In this document: positions 4,658 through 19,165 of the stretch, piece after piece
Position numbering within the stretch: position 1 is the stretch's first letter
Layout of the letters: each line of letters begins with the position of its first letter
NCBI GenBank assembly: GCA_902794395.1
Contig: CADBHB010000016.1
Span: 1-59,979, forward strand
Source: an uncultured Ruminococcus sp.
GTDB lineage: Bacteria > Bacillota > Clostridia > Oscillospirales > Acutalibacteraceae
Length of the DNA: 59,979 bases
Direction of reading: 5' to 3'
Notes under the pieces: model-generated
Seen by the model: the letters and a program-made list of their open reading frames with translations, nothing else
Databases searched by the model: none
What the model was told of the DNA's origin: nothing
Made by a program: the position numbers and the translations under genes

Positions 4658-7600
4658 ATGAGCAAATTAATGAAAAGAACGCTGATGAGTCTGATGATAT
4701 TGACGCTTTTTTCAGCGGCGGCGGCGCTGACGATGATGGTATCTCACGCCGACGACTACTACACCATCCGCATAAACTATATATTTGAGGACGGCAGTCG
4801 CGCTCACGATCCCTACATAGGCACATATCACGCGGGCGACCCGGTCGACATCACCGTCACCAACCCCAAGATAGACGGCTATGTGCCGATGACTGCCCTT
4901 GAGGGCGGCGTTTCGGCGGAGACCAGCACGTTTCAAGTCGGCTCTCTTGACGGCAACCACACCGAGACCGTGTACTATATCGCGGGCTTGACGCATTACC
5001 GGGTAATGTATTACAAGCAGAATATCAACGACGACCTCTACACCCGAGACTACACGGTGGCGTCGGAGTACACCGACCGCTACGGCTACACCGGCACCAA
5101 CCCCACCGAGCTGGAGAGCGAGAACCTTTTTGAGGGCTTTACCAATCTTTTCCACGAGCCGGACGCCATAGCCGCCGACGGCTCTACGGTGTTCAGGGTA
5201 TACTACGACCGCAACTACTACTCCGTGTTGTTTGACCTGGGCGACAAAGGCTACGGCGTTGACCCCATCTATGCCAAGTTCCAGTACCCTTACCACATCT
5301 CGGAGCCTAAGCGTCTGGGCTACATCTTCAAGGGCTGGGCGCGCACCGACGCGGACTCCTCCTCGGGCGAGGAGGGCACCGACTGGCACTACATCGACGA
5401 GAACGGCAGCGTGATAACCCCCGAGGAGGCGGCGCGCACCGCCTTTACGTTCTTTGAGGGCGAGGTGCCGTCACACGACACCTACTACAAGGCTATTTGG
5501 GAGGCTACCGAGACCCAGTTCAGCATAGTCTACTGGCTCGAGAACACCGACAGCACGCTGGACATAAGCGAGGTAGACAGCGCGGCTACACTTGAGCAGT
5601 CAAGGGCTATCATCGGCTCAAACTACTCGGTAATAGCCACAAAGATAGTCAGCCCCGTCATTTCAGGCTCACAGATAAATCAGGAAACCGAGATAACAAA
5701 CGTCAAGGGCGAGAATATGAAGGTCAAAGACTTCTTTGATTATGACCTGACCGAGTCCGGCGATTTCCCGGATATGAGCACCGCGCTTAGAAATGAGCTG
5801 CTCGGAAAATCCAAATACTATGATTACTATCCGCAGTTGTCGGCGCTTCAGTTCACGGGTAGTCACGAAGACGAGCAAAAGACCCACCTGACCGTTTCCG
5901 GCGACGGTACCACGCGTATCAACATTTACTACAAACGTAAAACCTTTACGATGAAGTTTTATTACGCCAGGCAGGGCTTTAAGAACGGCGAGCCCGACCC
6001 GGATCAAATAAGCCTGACCAACTCAACCAAAACTTTCTCGGGTCATGACTACAAAAACCGCAACGCGCTGGAGGCGATAGCCAAGGGCCCGTGGAGCGAA
6101 AACATCGCCGAGACCATGCCCAGGATAAAGGATAAGTACCGGGCGGAAAACGGCGGCACCCTGACGGAGCTGTATGAGGACTATACCGATGCCAATACCC
6201 TATACCGCTTCTGGTACTATCAGGTAGAGGCTAAGTACGGCGCCTCTTTGGAGGGCAAGTGGCTGGTAGACGCCTTCACCGACGTGCACAAAAAGGGCTA
6301 CGCTGAAAATGAGATGTGCAGGTCCGGAAGCTGGGCGGTAGAATACGGTACCTACTATTATTACAGCCACACATCGGTCAATAACTACTCTATCAAGGGC
6401 TTTTATGAAAAGCTCGGCAATGAATTGATGTTCAAGGATACAAAAACCAACTACACCGAGCTTCATTACCTTGTTTCCTGGACGAACACAAACAGAGGCA
6501 ATAACTGGAACGGTAAGATAAGTAGGGTGCTGAACTTCACCTATGAAAACTACGTAGAGCTGCTCCCGCGCGAGTTGGATATGATAGCCGACACCGACGG
6601 CGACGGAACACCCGACGACCCGCAGGCGTTGATCGACAGCGAGATGTATGAAAGCGTTATCCCGCACACAGTCAACGGAGTCGAAAAATGGTACGGTCTG
6701 AAAACGGAATACGTGCCCCTTTCGCCGTACGAGCTGGCGCACAAGGACACGGACGAAAACGGAAACAACATCCCCGACCTTATTGACGACCACACCTTCA
6801 TAAAAATCAAGTATGTCGAAGAGGAAAACAAGTGGTACGGGCTTAAGTCGGTAAACCGCATAGAGACCACCGACTCGGGCGACCAGTATGATAGAGACAA
6901 GACGTTGGAACAAAAGAACGCAAACGTCCGCTCAAACCAAACCGCGGCAGAATTGACGGGCTTTACGATAGAGGACTACAGACTGAATGCTAAAGGTCAG
7001 ATAATACTAAACGACAACAACACCGATATAGACTGGTCGAGAGATACGGACTACGACCGCCATGCCACCATAAAGTTCTTCTACAAGCGCAACAAGTACA
7101 CTCTGAAATACTACAACAGCAACCGTCTGGAAGAAGACTACACCCACGAAGTAATGTACGGCGCGCCGCTCAACTCCAAGGACGCGCAGGGCAATTACCG
7201 CTATTACTATGAAAAGCCTACCTACTTCAACCCCGACCTGGTAGACTACTACACCTTTGAGGGCTGGTATTACACCCCCTACTACTACCGTCAGGTCAAC
7301 ATTAATAACTTTACCATGCCCGCCGAAGACGTCATCCTGTACGCCAAGTGGGACCCCAAGGAGATCAACGTGACCTTCTACCCCACCTACAACGACTTCT
7401 ACGCGGACGTCCACAAGCTGGACAACGAAGAGCACAAGGTGGGCGAGACCTTCAAGGTCAACTACGGCTCGTTCATCCCCACAAACAGGATACCCGCCGA
7501 CACAGACAGCTCCAGCCTCAACCGTCCGCTGCTTATACCGCCCGCCGATGAAGCGATGTTCGCGGGCTGGTACTACCTGCGCGACAACATCCCCATGCGC

Positions 7601-10966: not shown

Positions 10967-11824
10967 ATGAAACACGTAAAAAAGCTTTTTGTCTTCATCC
11001 TCGCGGCGCTTACGCTCTGCACGGGGCTTTCGGCTCAGGCGGCGGACAACTACATGGAGCTGGACGGTCTGGCGTTCACGCTGCAAAACGGCGAGGCGGT
11101 CATCCGCGCCTACAACGGTGAAAGCGACAAGGTAATAATTCCCGAAACCCTGCTGGGCGAACCCGTGACCGCCATAGGCAGCGCCGCCTTCTTTGAAAAA
11201 GACATAGCCGCGGTCTATTTTGACAGCGCCGTGCAGCTGCGCAGTATCGGCAACAGCGCCTTTTCGTCCTGCACCGGTCTGAAATCCGTTGAGCTGCCCG
11301 ACAGCGTAACGCAGATAGAGTTCGGCGCGTTTCAGGACTGCGCCGCCCTTGAAACTCTTTCGCTGGGAAGCGGAGTGACCGCCATAGGCGCTCAGAGCTT
11401 TTGCAGCTGCGAAAGCCTGACGACCGTTGAGCTGCCCGAAAGCACCCGAAGCATAGGCAAATACGCCTTTGGCGACTGCGGCTCTCTGAGGCGCGTCCTA
11501 ATACCCTCGGGCGTGAGCGACATCTCCGCGTCGGCGTTCGACGACTGCGAAAAGCTCACTGTATACTGCTACACAGGCTCTGCCGCGCACGCCTTTGCGC
11601 AAGCGCAGTCGCTGCGTTACGTGCTGCTTGACGCCATGCTGTCGGGCGACGCAGACGCAAACGGCAAAGTAAATGTGAACGACGTCACCACCATCCAGCG
11701 GCACCTTGCGGACGTAGAGCCAATTTGGTGGCCCGCTGTTTCCTGCACCGACCTTGACGGCGACGGCTCCGTGACCATATCGGACGCCACCATACTGCAG
11801 CGCCGCCTGGCGGAATTTATATAA
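10967..11824 (+). CDS. Secreted BspA-like LRR protein with C-terminal type I dockerin
   Basis: The 285-aa protein has a signal peptide (residues 1-24, ending near SAQA). About seven LRR_5 (BspA/TpLRR) repeats of roughly 22 residues follow, from 40 to 200, with motifs such as SIGNSAFSSCTGLKSVELP and AIGAQSFCSC. A type I dockerin occupies residues 227-285, with two calcium-binding F-hand repeats (GDADANGKVNVNDVTTIQ and TDLDGDGSVTISDATILQ). A dockerin docks its carrier onto a cohesin-bearing scaffoldin, so this is probably a cellulosome- or amylosome-associated binding protein. AAAGGAGG precedes the ATG. It ends the operon begun at 4658. Confidence 0.9.
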   Translation: MKHVKKLFVFILAALTLCTGLSAQAADNYMELDGLAFTLQNGEAVIRAYNGESDKVIIPETLLGEPVTAIGSAAFFEKDIAAVYFDSAVQLRSIGNSAFSSCTGLKSVELPDSVTQIEFGAFQDCAALETLSLGSGVTAIGAQSFCSCESLTTVELPESTRSIGKYAFGDCGSLRRVLIPSGVSDISASAFDDCEKLTVYCYTGSAAHAFAQAQSLRYVLLDAMLSGDADANGKVNVNDVTTIQRHLADVEPIWWPAVSCTDLDGDGSVTISDATILQRRLAEFI

Positions 11825-15754: not shown

Positions 15755-15783
15755 TTGAAACTAAAGGTATGATATGCTACAAT
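15755..15783 (+). promoter_or_regulatory. Promoter of the lipoprotein gene at 15812
   Basis: TTGAAA (15755-15760) and TACAAT (15778-15783) have a 17-bp spacer. The in-frame ATG at 15782 lies inside the -10 box and cannot be the translation start. Confidence 0.8.
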
Positions 15784-15811
15784 GATAAAAACAAAAGGGA
15801 GGTATTCCATT

Positions 15812-16492
15812 ATGTTCAAAAAAACCATGCTTATCATCATCTCCGCCGCGTTGGTCGCGGTGGCGGCAAGCGGCTGTGACACAGGCAGCTCGGGCAAACC
15901 ATCCAAGACATCCTCTTCGCAGGCGACGTCCGAAGAAACAAGCGGACAGGCGTCCGAAGGCGGCAACAGCAGTGAGATGCCCGACGATAACGGCAGCGAG
16001 GTCACCGACGACACCTCCTCTGCCGAGGCGGAAACCTCCGACAGCGGCGTCACTCCCACGCAGAGCATCATCGGCTTCGGCGATCTGCCGTCCTCCTACT
16101 CCTACTACGCGGGCGCTATGAGCGCGCCGAAATCCTTCCTCACCATCAGCTCGGACGGAGCTTTTCATGTTGAGTGGAAACAGCTTACCCCGCAGTCCGA
16201 AACCGACTCGGAAACCGGAGAGGACCGTTCCCGCTCGGAGATGAACGGAACGCTGACTCCGCTTGAAAAGACCGACGAGGACTACTGCTACACCTGCAAA
16301 GTCGCCTCCAGCGACTCCAACGACTATCCCGCGGGACAAACCGTGACCTTCCTGCTGCCGGGCGCGCCCGTTTCCGCTCTGCCCGACAAGCATTATCCCG
16401 AGGTGATCGCCGGCTACGAGAACGACACGCTGACGGCAGCGCATGTGTATTTTGAGCTGCAGGACTCCGTATACGTAGCGACGCCCAACTGA
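15812..16492 (+). CDS. Lipoprotein of unknown function
   Basis: The 226-aa protein starts at the ATG at 15812, seven to eight bases after GGGAGG. A lipoprotein signal MFKKTMLIIISAALVAVAASGC gives lipidation at Cys22. A Ser/Glu/Asp/Thr-rich low-complexity linker (about 23-85) leads to a compact C-terminal domain with FLTISSDGAFHVEWKQL, DYCYTCKVAS and PGAPVSALPDKHYPEV. The domain layout suggests a small surface beta-domain, but I recognise no family. It lies between nifJ (divergent) and the membrane sigma factor (same strand, about 120 bases on). Confidence 0.75.
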   Translation: MFKKTMLIIISAALVAVAASGCDTGSSGKPSKTSSSQATSEETSGQASEGGNSSEMPDDNGSEVTDDTSSAEAETSDSGVTPTQSIIGFGDLPSSYSYYAGAMSAPKSFLTISSDGAFHVEWKQLTPQSETDSETGEDRSRSEMNGTLTPLEKTDEDYCYTCKVASSDSNDYPAGQTVTFLLPGAPVSALPDKHYPEVIAGYENDTLTAAHVYFELQDSVYVATPN

Positions 16493-16526: not shown

Positions 16527-16554
16527 TCAAACCTTTTCCCTTTCTTTGTGTCTT
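16527..16554 (+). promoter_or_regulatory. Candidate ECF-type promoter of the membrane sigma factor gene
   Basis: TCAAACCTTTT (16527-16537) followed by GTGTCTT (16548-16554) resembles the AAC-rich -35 and GTC-type -10 boxes of ECF promoters. No sigma-A promoter of comparable quality precedes the gene. Self-activation would be typical, but this rests on motif resemblance only. Confidence 0.35.
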
Positions 16555-16614
16555 TTGTAATGAAAGGCTTTTAAAGTTACCTTAAAGCAAGGAGCGGAAA
16601 GAGAGGTAATTCCG

Positions 16615-18114
16615 ATGAAAAAACAACCGAAGTATAAAATAGATAACGCCAAACTCACCAGGCTGGCGGCAAAGGCGCAGAAGGGCAACGAAAAAGCGAC
16701 CGAGGACGTTGTGAACATGATAAGCGGCTATCTGTACTACTACAGCCTCGGCATGCTGGGTGACGAGGAAAAGGCAAAGGACGCCGTGCAGGACATCCTG
16801 CTGATGATGCTGCAAAAGCTTGACACCCTTGAAGACCCGAAGGCGTTTTTGGGCTGGATAAAGATGATGACCGCCAACCACTGCCACAACCTGATTACCC
16901 GCAAAAAGAGCTGTGTCAGCATCGACGAAGTATGCGCGGAGTACCGTGACGAAGACGAGCAGGTATGTCCCGAGAAGGCGGCAGAATCTGCGGAGGTCTG
17001 CTCGATCGTGCGCGGCGCCGTGAATGCACTGCCGCTCAATCAGCGCGAAAGCGTGCTGATGTTCTACTTTCAGCAGCTCAGCATCAGGGAGATCGCCGAA
17101 GCCCTCTCTGTCAGTGAGAACACTGTCAAAAGCCGCTTATTTTCGGCGCGGCAGTCACTGAAAAAGAAACTCGAGGCGGCAGGCGCGGCGGCTTTCGCCT
17201 CCTGTGCGATCCCCGCGATGAAGCTGATCTCCTTCAGCCTGATCACCGAAGCGGAGGAACAGACAGGCGTGATGATCCCCTACACCACTCCCTCGAGCGC
17301 CGTGAAGGTCGCCTCCTTCCGCACCGCCCCCGCTGCGTCTGCGCTGCCGCTGAAAATCGCCGCGGCGGCTTGCGCGGCACTGATCGTGACGGGCGGCGTC
17401 TGCGCGACGATCACGGGGGCGCGCTCTGCGGACAGCGGCAAGGCTTTCGCAGGCAGCCCGGTCAAACGGCCGCAGAACGCGGTGTTGCAGACGACCGCGC
17501 AGGAAACAGCGCCCGAAACCGTCGCAGTATTGACTTCGCCTTCGCTATTCGCCGTTTCCTCGGAGACGCAGCCTTCGACGCAGCTGACCGTCCCGCCCGC
17601 CGAGCCGGCGATCAACCGAAACGAGCCCCTGAGTGACACGGAGGAAACCGTCGCCGCGACCGTTCCCGCACAGACCGTCCCCGAGACAACGATTCCGGAA
17701 ACGACCGTCCCGCCGGAAACGCAGCCTGTCACGCAGCCTGCCACGGAGCCTGCCACGCAGCCGCCGAAGACCTCACAGCCCATCGTGTATTTCAACACGA
17801 CAGGCTGGCAGGATTTTACAAAGGTTTATTGCTATGTTCATGAAAAGGGCGGCGAAGGCTTTTATACCTGGATGAGCAAACAGACGCTCTGCACCCACTA
17901 CCGCCGCTCCTTCTACAGCTACGATCTCAGCGCGCTTGATCTTGACCCTAACAAACAGTATGTTTTGATATTCAGCGCGGACAACGGCGCTCAGACGAGC
18001 AGTGTGGAGTTCACCACCGCGCGTTACGGCGAGACCGTAGAGCTGAAATCTGCAAATCAAGTCTGGGGTAACTCAGATTCCTCCAAACACACCTACGACG
18101 CAGGCTGGAAATAA
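16615..18114 (+). CDS. Membrane-tethered ECF sigma factor with extracellular CBM26-like domain
   Basis: The 499-aa protein joins three parts. Residues 1-95 are ECF region 2 (YYYSLGMLGDEEKAKDAVQD, then ILLMMLQKLDTLEDPKAFLG). Residues 130-187 are region 4, with the helix-turn-helix LSIREIAEALSVSENTVKSR. A membrane helix spans about 246-268. A Thr/Pro/Glu-rich linker follows (about 290-387, PETTIPETTVPPETQP and repeated TQPAT). The C-terminal domain (about 388-466) has VYFNTTGW, a YCYVHE strand, an RRSFYSYDL strand and YVLIFSADNGAQT. That order and the aromatic positions resemble starch-binding module CBM26. The sigma domain would be cytoplasmic and the CBM outside, so glycan contact could control sigma activity or release. 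The closest known analogues, SigI/RsgI of cellulolytic clostridia, split these roles between two proteins. No separate anti-sigma gene is adjacent. Confidence 0.8.
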   Translation: MKKQPKYKIDNAKLTRLAAKAQKGNEKATEDVVNMISGYLYYYSLGMLGDEEKAKDAVQDILLMMLQKLDTLEDPKAFLGWIKMMTANHCHNLITRKKSCVSIDEVCAEYRDEDEQVCPEKAAESAEVCSIVRGAVNALPLNQRESVLMFYFQQLSIREIAEALSVSENTVKSRLFSARQSLKKKLEAAGAAAFASCAIPAMKLISFSLITEAEEQTGVMIPYTTPSSAVKVASFRTAPAASALPLKIAAAACAALIVTGGVCATITGARSADSGKAFAGSPVKRPQNAVLQTTAQETAPETVAVLTSPSLFAVSSETQPSTQLTVPPAEPAINRNEPLSDTEETVAATVPAQTVPETTIPETTVPPETQPVTQPATEPATQPPKTSQPIVYFNTTGWQDFTKVYCYVHEKGGEGFYTWMSKQTLCTHYRRSFYSYDLSALDLDPNKQYVLIFSADNGAQTSSVEFTTARYGETVELKSANQVWGNSDSSKHTYDAGWK

Positions 18115-18352: not shown

Positions 18353-19075
18353 TTATTCGGCGACAAAGCAAACTCTGCGTGAAGCAGCCATGTCAACGGA
18401 GCCGTCGCTTTTATATACAGGGTAGTCGTATGAGCAGCCCTTGGCAACCAGGTATCCCTTCAGCTCGGGATGCAGCTCGTTGCAGTAATTCATTACAGCT
18501 GTTGCCCTTTTCTCGGAAAGCTGCAAATTGTAATCGTATGATCCGTCGGTATCGGTATGACCCTCAACGGTTATTTTTTTAACGTCGGTCGTGCCGTCCT
18601 CTTTGAAAATAGCATTTACATAATCATCTATAAAGCCCTTGACGCTTTCCTTTCCGCTATCCGAAAGCTCTGAACTGTTGTAGGCAAACAAGACCTCGGC
18701 GTCCAGAGAGATAGCGCCGCGATTATCAGTAGCGACATACGGACTTGCTTGGACGCTTTCGTTGATCTCCAAATTGATTTCGGGGATAGTCGGTATTGTG
18801 ATCTGCACGTCCTGCGCCGCAACTGTGGGAATATCCAGGTCAAGTTCTTGTTTGGAGTATTCTATTTTCATGCTCGGAGAGGAGCTCTCCGCCCCGGAAT
18901 TGTTCACAGCATTATTTTCCGCATCCGGTTTTTCTGCTGTTGTACCCTGCTTTTCGGTTGCCGATGTTTGGGTATCGGCGGATTCCGCCTTGGCTTTGCT
19001 TGTTTGTTTTGAAGTACACGCTGCCGCCGAAAGCAAAACAATAAGAGCTAACGATACTATAAGCGCTTTTTTCAT
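18353..19075 (-). CDS. Lipoprotein with C-terminal OmpA/MotB-like domain
   Basis: The 240-aa protein has a lipobox (LLSAAAC, Cys20) and a Ser/Thr/Glu/Ala-rich linker (about 21-75). The OmpA-like peptidoglycan-binding fold occupies about 135-240: LDAEVLFAYNSSELSDSGK, then ITVEGHTDTDGSYDYNLQLS, then EKRATAVMNY. The GHTD motif and the following LS..RA are the family signature for binding meso-diaminopimelate or related peptide. In a monoderm this would link the outer leaflet of the membrane to the wall. The ATG at 19075 lies after AAAGGAGG, and an upstream in-frame start lies inside the leader. The leader and promoter resemble those of nifJ. Confidence 0.85.
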   Translation of the reverse strand: MKKALIVSLALIVLLSAAACTSKQTSKAKAESADTQTSATEKQGTTAEKPDAENNAVNNSGAESSSPSMKIEYSKQELDLDIPTVAAQDVQITIPTIPEINLEINESVQASPYVATDNRGAISLDAEVLFAYNSSELSDSGKESVKGFIDDYVNAIFKEDGTTDVKKITVEGHTDTDGSYDYNLQLSEKRATAVMNYCNELHPELKGYLVAKGCSYDYPVYKSDGSVDMAASRRVCFVAE

Positions 19076-19165
19076 TTGGAAATCGTCCTCCTTTAATTGA
19101 AACGGCAAAGTGAAACGTTGCAGTTTATGTAATCCGATACATAATATATCACAATAAAATGTACT
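19076..19165 (-). repeat. OmpA-like gene leader, copy 2 of the nifJ-type leader
   Basis: Counterpart of 15547-15633. The -10 region TATATTATG and the Shine-Dalgarno block are conserved, but the hairpin arms and the -35 region have diverged. I cannot place a good -35 box here. Confidence 0.75.

Follow-up and report, generated by a model that had tools for sequence, protein, structure and literature searches.

The open reading frame at 16615-18114 on the forward strand of the window (the whole 59,979-nucleotide stretch analysed here, part of contig 16 in the 2.2-Mb genome of a gut bacterium that is probably a relative of Ruminococcus bromii) encodes a protein in which an ECF sigma factor is joined through a membrane segment to a starch-binding-like domain. 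We consider it reasonably probable that this protein is a transmembrane receptor and a sigma factor for starch in one molecule, with release of the sigma half by the mechanism proposed below. Starch binding, topology and release are the parts of this reading that we infer. The features of the locus are as follows.

16528-16555, forward strand: putative ECF-type promoter, CAAACC-N16-GTCTTT, conserved upstream of the receptor gene in relatives, its strict form unique in the own genome
16615-18114, forward strand: ECF sigma/membrane segment/CBM26-like fusion protein of 499 residues (open reading frame, Pfam and sequence)
16729-16908, forward strand: sigma region 2, residues 39-98 (PF04542, E 1.3e-7, 31.7 bits, above the cut-off)
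17008-17160, forward strand: sigma region 4, residues 132-182 (PF08281, Sigma70_r4_2, E 2e-14, 53.4 bits, above the cut-off)
17176-17268, forward strand: conserved, predicted cytoplasmic segment after sigma region 4, residues 188-218 (62% mean pairwise identity among eight clade members)
17356-17412, forward strand: predicted membrane segment, residues 248-266 (hydropathy 2.16)
17419-17772, forward strand: linker rich in Pro, Thr and Ala, about residues 269-386 (sequence; 16% mean pairwise identity among eight clade members)
17776-18111, forward strand: CBM26-like or Sas20 domain 1-like domain, residues 388-499 (profile and predicted fold)

The reading frame is unbroken from the ATG at 16615, and the protein scored 71.4 bits with the sigma70-ECF superfamily model TIGR02937, whose cut-off is 42.9. 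An earlier note on this DNA had placed ECF regions 2 and 4, a membrane segment near residues 246-268 and a Thr/Pro-rich linker within one frame, and each of these was recovered, the hydrophobic peak lying at 248-266. Membrane segments were called by a hydropathy script with a threshold of 1.6, not by a trained predictor, and the script counted two in this protein; the second, at residues 192-210, is weaker (mean hydropathy 1.69) and only just passes. Were that segment to cross the membrane as well, the C-terminus would lie on the inner side. K247 was almost invariant in an alignment of 24 sequences. The full-length model (mean pLDDT 63.8) was weak except in the sigma and sensor parts; with low confidence it placed helices at residues 201-217 and 249-259. 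The conserved segment at residues 188-218 is predicted to be a regulatory helix.

The proposal that the sensor is a built-in part of the sigma factor was also supported. The fusion lies in one continuous frame, and as relatives with its layout come from other genomes, it is not an assembly join. The absence of an adjacent anti-sigma gene was likewise borne out, with no anti-sigma match in the three neighbours tested. The lipoprotein encoded upstream at 15782-16492 was considered as a partner and rejected, as it had no BLAST match at the other compared loci; one 20-residue stretch of it resembled the sensor of another receptor (E 0.001). On the other side, at 18353-19108 on the reverse strand, an OmpA-family lipoprotein-like gene is convergent with the receptor gene, in what is presumed to be a Gram-positive-type genome, and it too had no BLAST match at the other compared loci.

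Of 100 genomes sampled from the genus, eight carried the receptor clade, the window's own among them (7 of the 99 others), and a further member occurs in the rumen bin RUG202. The RUG202 gene (L056, 5001-6452) is broken into two frames in the linker, by an assembly error or in reality. Mean identity among eight clade sequences was 70% in sigma region 2, 73% in sigma region 4 and 62% in the segment that follows, falling to 16% in the linker and 23% in the sensor. A family profile detected the CBM26-like domain in seven of nine clade members, four of these seven having been seeds of the profile; it gave no match to the domain in the other two (G095 and G064).

In the mechanism that we favor, the sigma half would be cytoplasmic and kept inactive at the membrane, and binding of an alpha-glucan by the sensor outside would lead to its release or activation. 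Release would most likely occur by regulated intramembrane proteolysis through an RseP-type site-2 protease, and an inhibitory or hand-over role would fall most plausibly to the segment after sigma region 4. The freed sigma factor would then act at CAAACC-N16-GTC promoters, that of its own gene first (positive autoregulation), and in relatives at genes for starch-binding proteins that carry dockerins and belong to an amylosome-like complex. An M50 peptidase of the RseP type is present in the own genome, which says little because M50 peptidases were found in all 14 control genomes.

CadC-type membrane regulators act while tethered, and a sigma factor could do the same, its ligand altering conformation or clustering with no proteolysis involved. 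We judge this possible for the window protein and rather unlikely. It would fit with our finding no cleavage site in the receptor, including a site-1 signature, and the conserved segment after sigma region 4 might mask or expose that region without cleavage. Against it, studied examples of fused ECF proteins are described as undergoing proteolysis, in the case of IutY (PMC8999054), or have been proposed to do so, in that of SCO4117 (PMC5826349), as far as the available parts of these papers go.

The C-terminal domain had been likened in the earlier note to CBM26, and profile and structural searches agreed in this. The Pfam model PF16738 matched residues 391-464 with E 1.4e-4 and 22.4 bits in a search with the whole protein, below the curated cut-off of 28.1, and at 26.4 bits, still below it, in a genome search. 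A profile built from 18 domains, the window's included, matched domain 1 of Sas20 in the PDB (7RFT, 7RAW) with E 1.1e-24 (6e-24 with another version of the profile) and the CBM26 of Amy13K with E 3.2e-4; the window domain alone gave no match in a PDB sequence search. The model of residues 385-499, the region for which structure prediction had been suggested, was almost all beta (mean pLDDT 78.4). Its top PDB match by Foldseek was again Sas20 domain 1, with E 5.6e-6 and a TM-score, normalized to the query length, of 0.71, and the next matches included the CBM26 domains of Eubacterium rectale and Bacillus halodurans. The resemblance to CBM26 was supported, with Sas20 domain 1 closer than CBM26 proper.

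The available part of the Sas20 study (PMC9112005) describes a sugar platform formed by Y60 and W72 in domain 1, with further contacts from Q127, N130, N151 and T152; the W72A mutant bound neither tested ligand, and loss of the helical bundle lowered the affinity for maltoheptaose about 100-fold. In our alignment, the window residues at these six positions, taken in the same order, are His, Trp, Gln, Ser, Gly and Asn, so that W72 and Q127 are kept and four are changed. The position of W72 is held by Trp in five, Tyr in two and Ala in one of eight sigma-fused domains, and by Trp in all the free (unfused) copies tabulated. The beta domain is the last part of the window protein, and the C-terminal helical bundle of Sas20 is absent; the L012 paralog and the G074 copy extend past the beta domain, with the PDB match ending before most of the bundle. 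Starch binding by the window domain, as predicted from these comparisons, is plausible, but it may be weak, or the ligand may be a different one, all the more because the bundle is absent.

That the sensor re-uses the CBM26 fold for a ligand other than starch, such as another glycan or a protein (for example, an amylosome component), we regard as unlikely. The partial retention of binding-site residues in the sigma-fused copies would suit such a ligand, as would the failure of the family profile to find the domain in G095 and G064 and the divergence of the clade sensors relative to their sigma regions. Set against these points, the window protein retains the Trp that is essential in Sas20, and the neighbors and predicted targets of the relatives' receptors, described below, bear the same kind of domain.

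An outside location of the starch sensor is supported by the company that its relatives keep. Within the genus, some occur in frames of about 360 residues, the one tested matching an LPXTG anchor, and others are part of larger dockerin proteins, one of which carries X25 pullulanase modules. A Cys pair was considered as proof of this location and set aside: 31 of 44 domain sequences have both residues, eight have one and five none, and as these sequences are related the pair is merely suggestive.

ECF-type promoters carry AAC at -35 and GTC at -10, and the putative promoter at 16528-16555 ends 59 bases 5' of the receptor ATG. AACC-N16/17-GTC was found upstream of all 20 top-ranked sigma frames, among which are the window's own and near-copies. 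With a spacing of 15 to 17, the pattern occurred in 37 of 99 sigma upstream regions (one of the 100 sigma frames being dropped for its short upstream region), against 3.6 expected from mononucleotide shuffles, and in 23 of 431 upstream regions of non-sigma frames. The short core is not rare in itself, with two occurrences in the window against 2.0 expected. The presence of the motif before the 20 top-ranked frames suggests that the promoter, as predicted by motif, is autoregulatory.

The full motif, CAAACCTTTT-N12-GTCYTT, had eight sites in 100 genomes and its reversed control none. These sites were confined to seven genomes, all among the eight that bear the receptor clade. Six of the eight precede receptor genes, a partly circular result because the motif was derived from them, and two precede dockerin genes whose products start with signal-peptide-like sequences, the distances from the end of the site being 35 and 46 bases. 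One of these proteins has a Sas20-like domain and a dockerin match of 17.9 bits, under the cut-off of 22.9, with two repeats recognizable by eye; the dockerin match of the other exceeds that cut-off. A looser pattern searched in seven relatives was less clean, giving 17 sites that comprise the seven receptor promoters and ten others, these ten set against six for the reversed control. Two of those ten precede dockerin genes, one (L207) falls within a presumed ribosomal protein gene, another (G061, contig 12) lies 12 bases 5' of a 166-residue frame, and the remaining non-self sites were unconvincing. In the own genome, the strict motif occurred once, at the receptor's own promoter (control, none), and a search there for further targets with two mismatches was rejected, as 63 sites against 58 for the reversed control is no clear excess.

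Dockerin genes with a CBM26-like domain were also found 3' of the receptor gene, on the same strand, at four of nine clade loci (G061, G095, G064 and RUG202), which span three different gene neighborhoods; at G064 the start of the dockerin gene is clipped and its match to CBM26 is weak (E 0.034). G052 is a fifth locus with a dockerin gene, there in divergent orientation to the receptor gene. No dockerin gene adjoins the receptor at the window locus. From the promoter sites and these adjoining genes, a tie in the relatives between the receptor and starch-binding surface proteins gains support. It is very improbable that the protein is a surface starch adhesin whose sigma part controls its own gene alone, without a wider regulon, as the single strict promoter in the own genome and the lack of an adjoining dockerin gene in the window might suggest, given the full motif before two dockerin genes and the dockerin genes 3' of the receptor in relatives.

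The own genome is dockerin-rich and starch-oriented, and the usual SigI/RsgI sensor was not found there. Searches of it returned 57 dockerin matches (55 above the cut-off), 22 CBM26 matches (18 above the cut-off, the window's own being below) and no match to RsgI_N. Within the window, a dockerin match lies at 11645-11809 on the forward strand (E 9.2e-8), in an open frame of 293 residues.

Among published designs, ECF52 of Actinobacteria comes closest. According to the available text of PMC5826349, SCO4117 of Streptomyces coelicolor resembles the window protein in having an ECF domain, a transmembrane region, a proline-rich stretch and a C-terminal carbohydrate-binding domain, and proteolytic release was proposed for it, as here; its class was stated to be exclusive to Actinobacteria. 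The two differ in that ECF52 has a zinc finger, for which the window protein gave no Pfam match, the pattern HxxxCxxC being absent from all 93 membrane-type sigma frames. In addition, the carbohydrate domain of ECF52 is smart00776, in Actinobacteria, whereas that of the window protein is CBM26/Sas20-like and from a different phylum. Glycosyl hydrolase and carbohydrate-binding domains are predicted in some members of ECF52 and ECF53, according to a review (PMC10766802, in the part available).

Other known systems share single aspects of the proposed receptor. In the SigI/RsgI systems of Clostridium thermocellum, an outside substrate sensor likewise controls a sigma factor and cellulosome genes; unlike the window's single protein, these consist of two proteins, the anti-sigma factor having an autocleaved outer domain (PMC12203970, available part). 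RsgI is a precedent for release where the anti-sigma factor is a protein of its own. IutY, an ECF factor fused to an anti-sigma part, is a membrane-anchored sigma factor freed by RseP-type cleavage, but it responds to the siderophore aerobactin, and the available part of PMC8999054 mentions no carbohydrate-binding domain. Domain 1 of Sas20 and a Sas20-like cell-wall protein of Ruminococcus bromii share with the window protein the sensor family, the fold and part of the binding site (PMC9112005, available part). The Sas20 proteins are, however, structural starch-binding proteins, Sas20 itself belonging to the amylosome, and the term "sigma factor" is absent from the text of PMC9112005.

The window protein has many counterparts among membrane-type sigma factors whose sensors have been exchanged. 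Related loci (the best 80 of 556) came from Ruminococcus, Oscillibacter, Flavonifractor, Blautia, Christensenella, Lachnospiraceae and others. We picked 100 distinct sigma frames by likeness to the window protein, 74 from these 80 loci and 26 from further genomes including the own, and 93 of them had a hydrophobic segment after sigma region 4; four of the seven without one were truncated by the end of the locus. Among 89 complete membrane-type frames, exactly one segment was counted in 78, and at least 200 residues lay beyond it in 82. Pfam searches (E up to 0.01) covered 86 of 87 outer parts, one fragment (L029) being dropped. Among the 25 of 34 families listed, each present in at most six members, were LRR_5 (six), Big_2, CBM26, FG-GAP and MucB/RseB (three each), SnoaL_2 and LolA-like (two each), and RCC1 and CAP (one each); some matches, among them those to CBM26, MucB/RseB and SnoaL in members scanned singly, were below curated cut-offs.

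Comparison of family members indicated that the sigma halves are conserved and the sensors exchanged. The second membrane-type ECF sigma protein of the own genome (L012, 3770-5497, reverse strand, contig 21; 575 residues) and its G074 counterpart (L037, 15579-16991) share 91.5% identity across a stretch of 213 residues in their sigma parts. The sensor of the former is Sas20-like (E 8.7e-14 to 7RAW) and that of the latter differs, with weak SnoaL-like matches; near-identical sigma parts with unlike sensors point to a clean exchange of sensors. The L012 paralog keeps the equivalents of Y60 and W72 and is perhaps better suited to binding tests than the window protein.

Several further observations concern this family. 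In both the L012 and L037 genomes, a conserved small frame of about 42 residues (starting MNDSFL) lies upstream of the sigma gene (at 5497 and 16991, respectively), between it and a promoter-like AAAAC(A/C)TTTTT...CGTTATA site. A third membrane-type ECF sigma protein of the own genome (L013, 4597-5826, forward strand, contig 4; 409 residues) has a weak outer SnoaL-like match. Two sister receptors (L024 and L025) have weak, sub-threshold outer MucB/RseB matches, and L025 a LolA-like one too; MucB/RseB and LolA-like folds are employed by known sigma regulators.

In the open-access papers searched on membrane-anchored or extended sigma factors and on CBM-bearing sigma factors of Ruminococcus, we found no description of such proteins from gut Clostridia, and the available parts of PMC9112005 and PMC5814915 contain no description of starch sensing or the control of amylosome genes in degraders of the R. 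bromii type. Membrane-type sigma proteins of Clostridia may already bear an ECF group number in the 2021 classification. Taking the family as a whole, we see an even chance that a large class of transmembrane sigma factors, each made of a single protein, exists in gut Clostridia as a further layout next to sigma/anti-sigma pairs and one- and two-component systems. In this class, a conserved ECF half would be joined to outside sensors that are freely exchanged (starch-binding, LRR, Ig-like, RCC1 and CAP, with RseB/LolA-like, SnoaL-like and FG-GAP weakly matched), and each receptor would drive its own expression and that of surface proteins with the same sensor domain.

The finding supplies a testable receptor, a promoter and, in relatives, target genes for starch sensing, where detection of starch and activation of genes could be the work of one protein. 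If the reading is true, gut Clostridia would have a compact form of signalling in a sigma factor that spans the membrane and takes exchangeable sensors, and such a sigma factor would be a possible chassis for engineered sensors.
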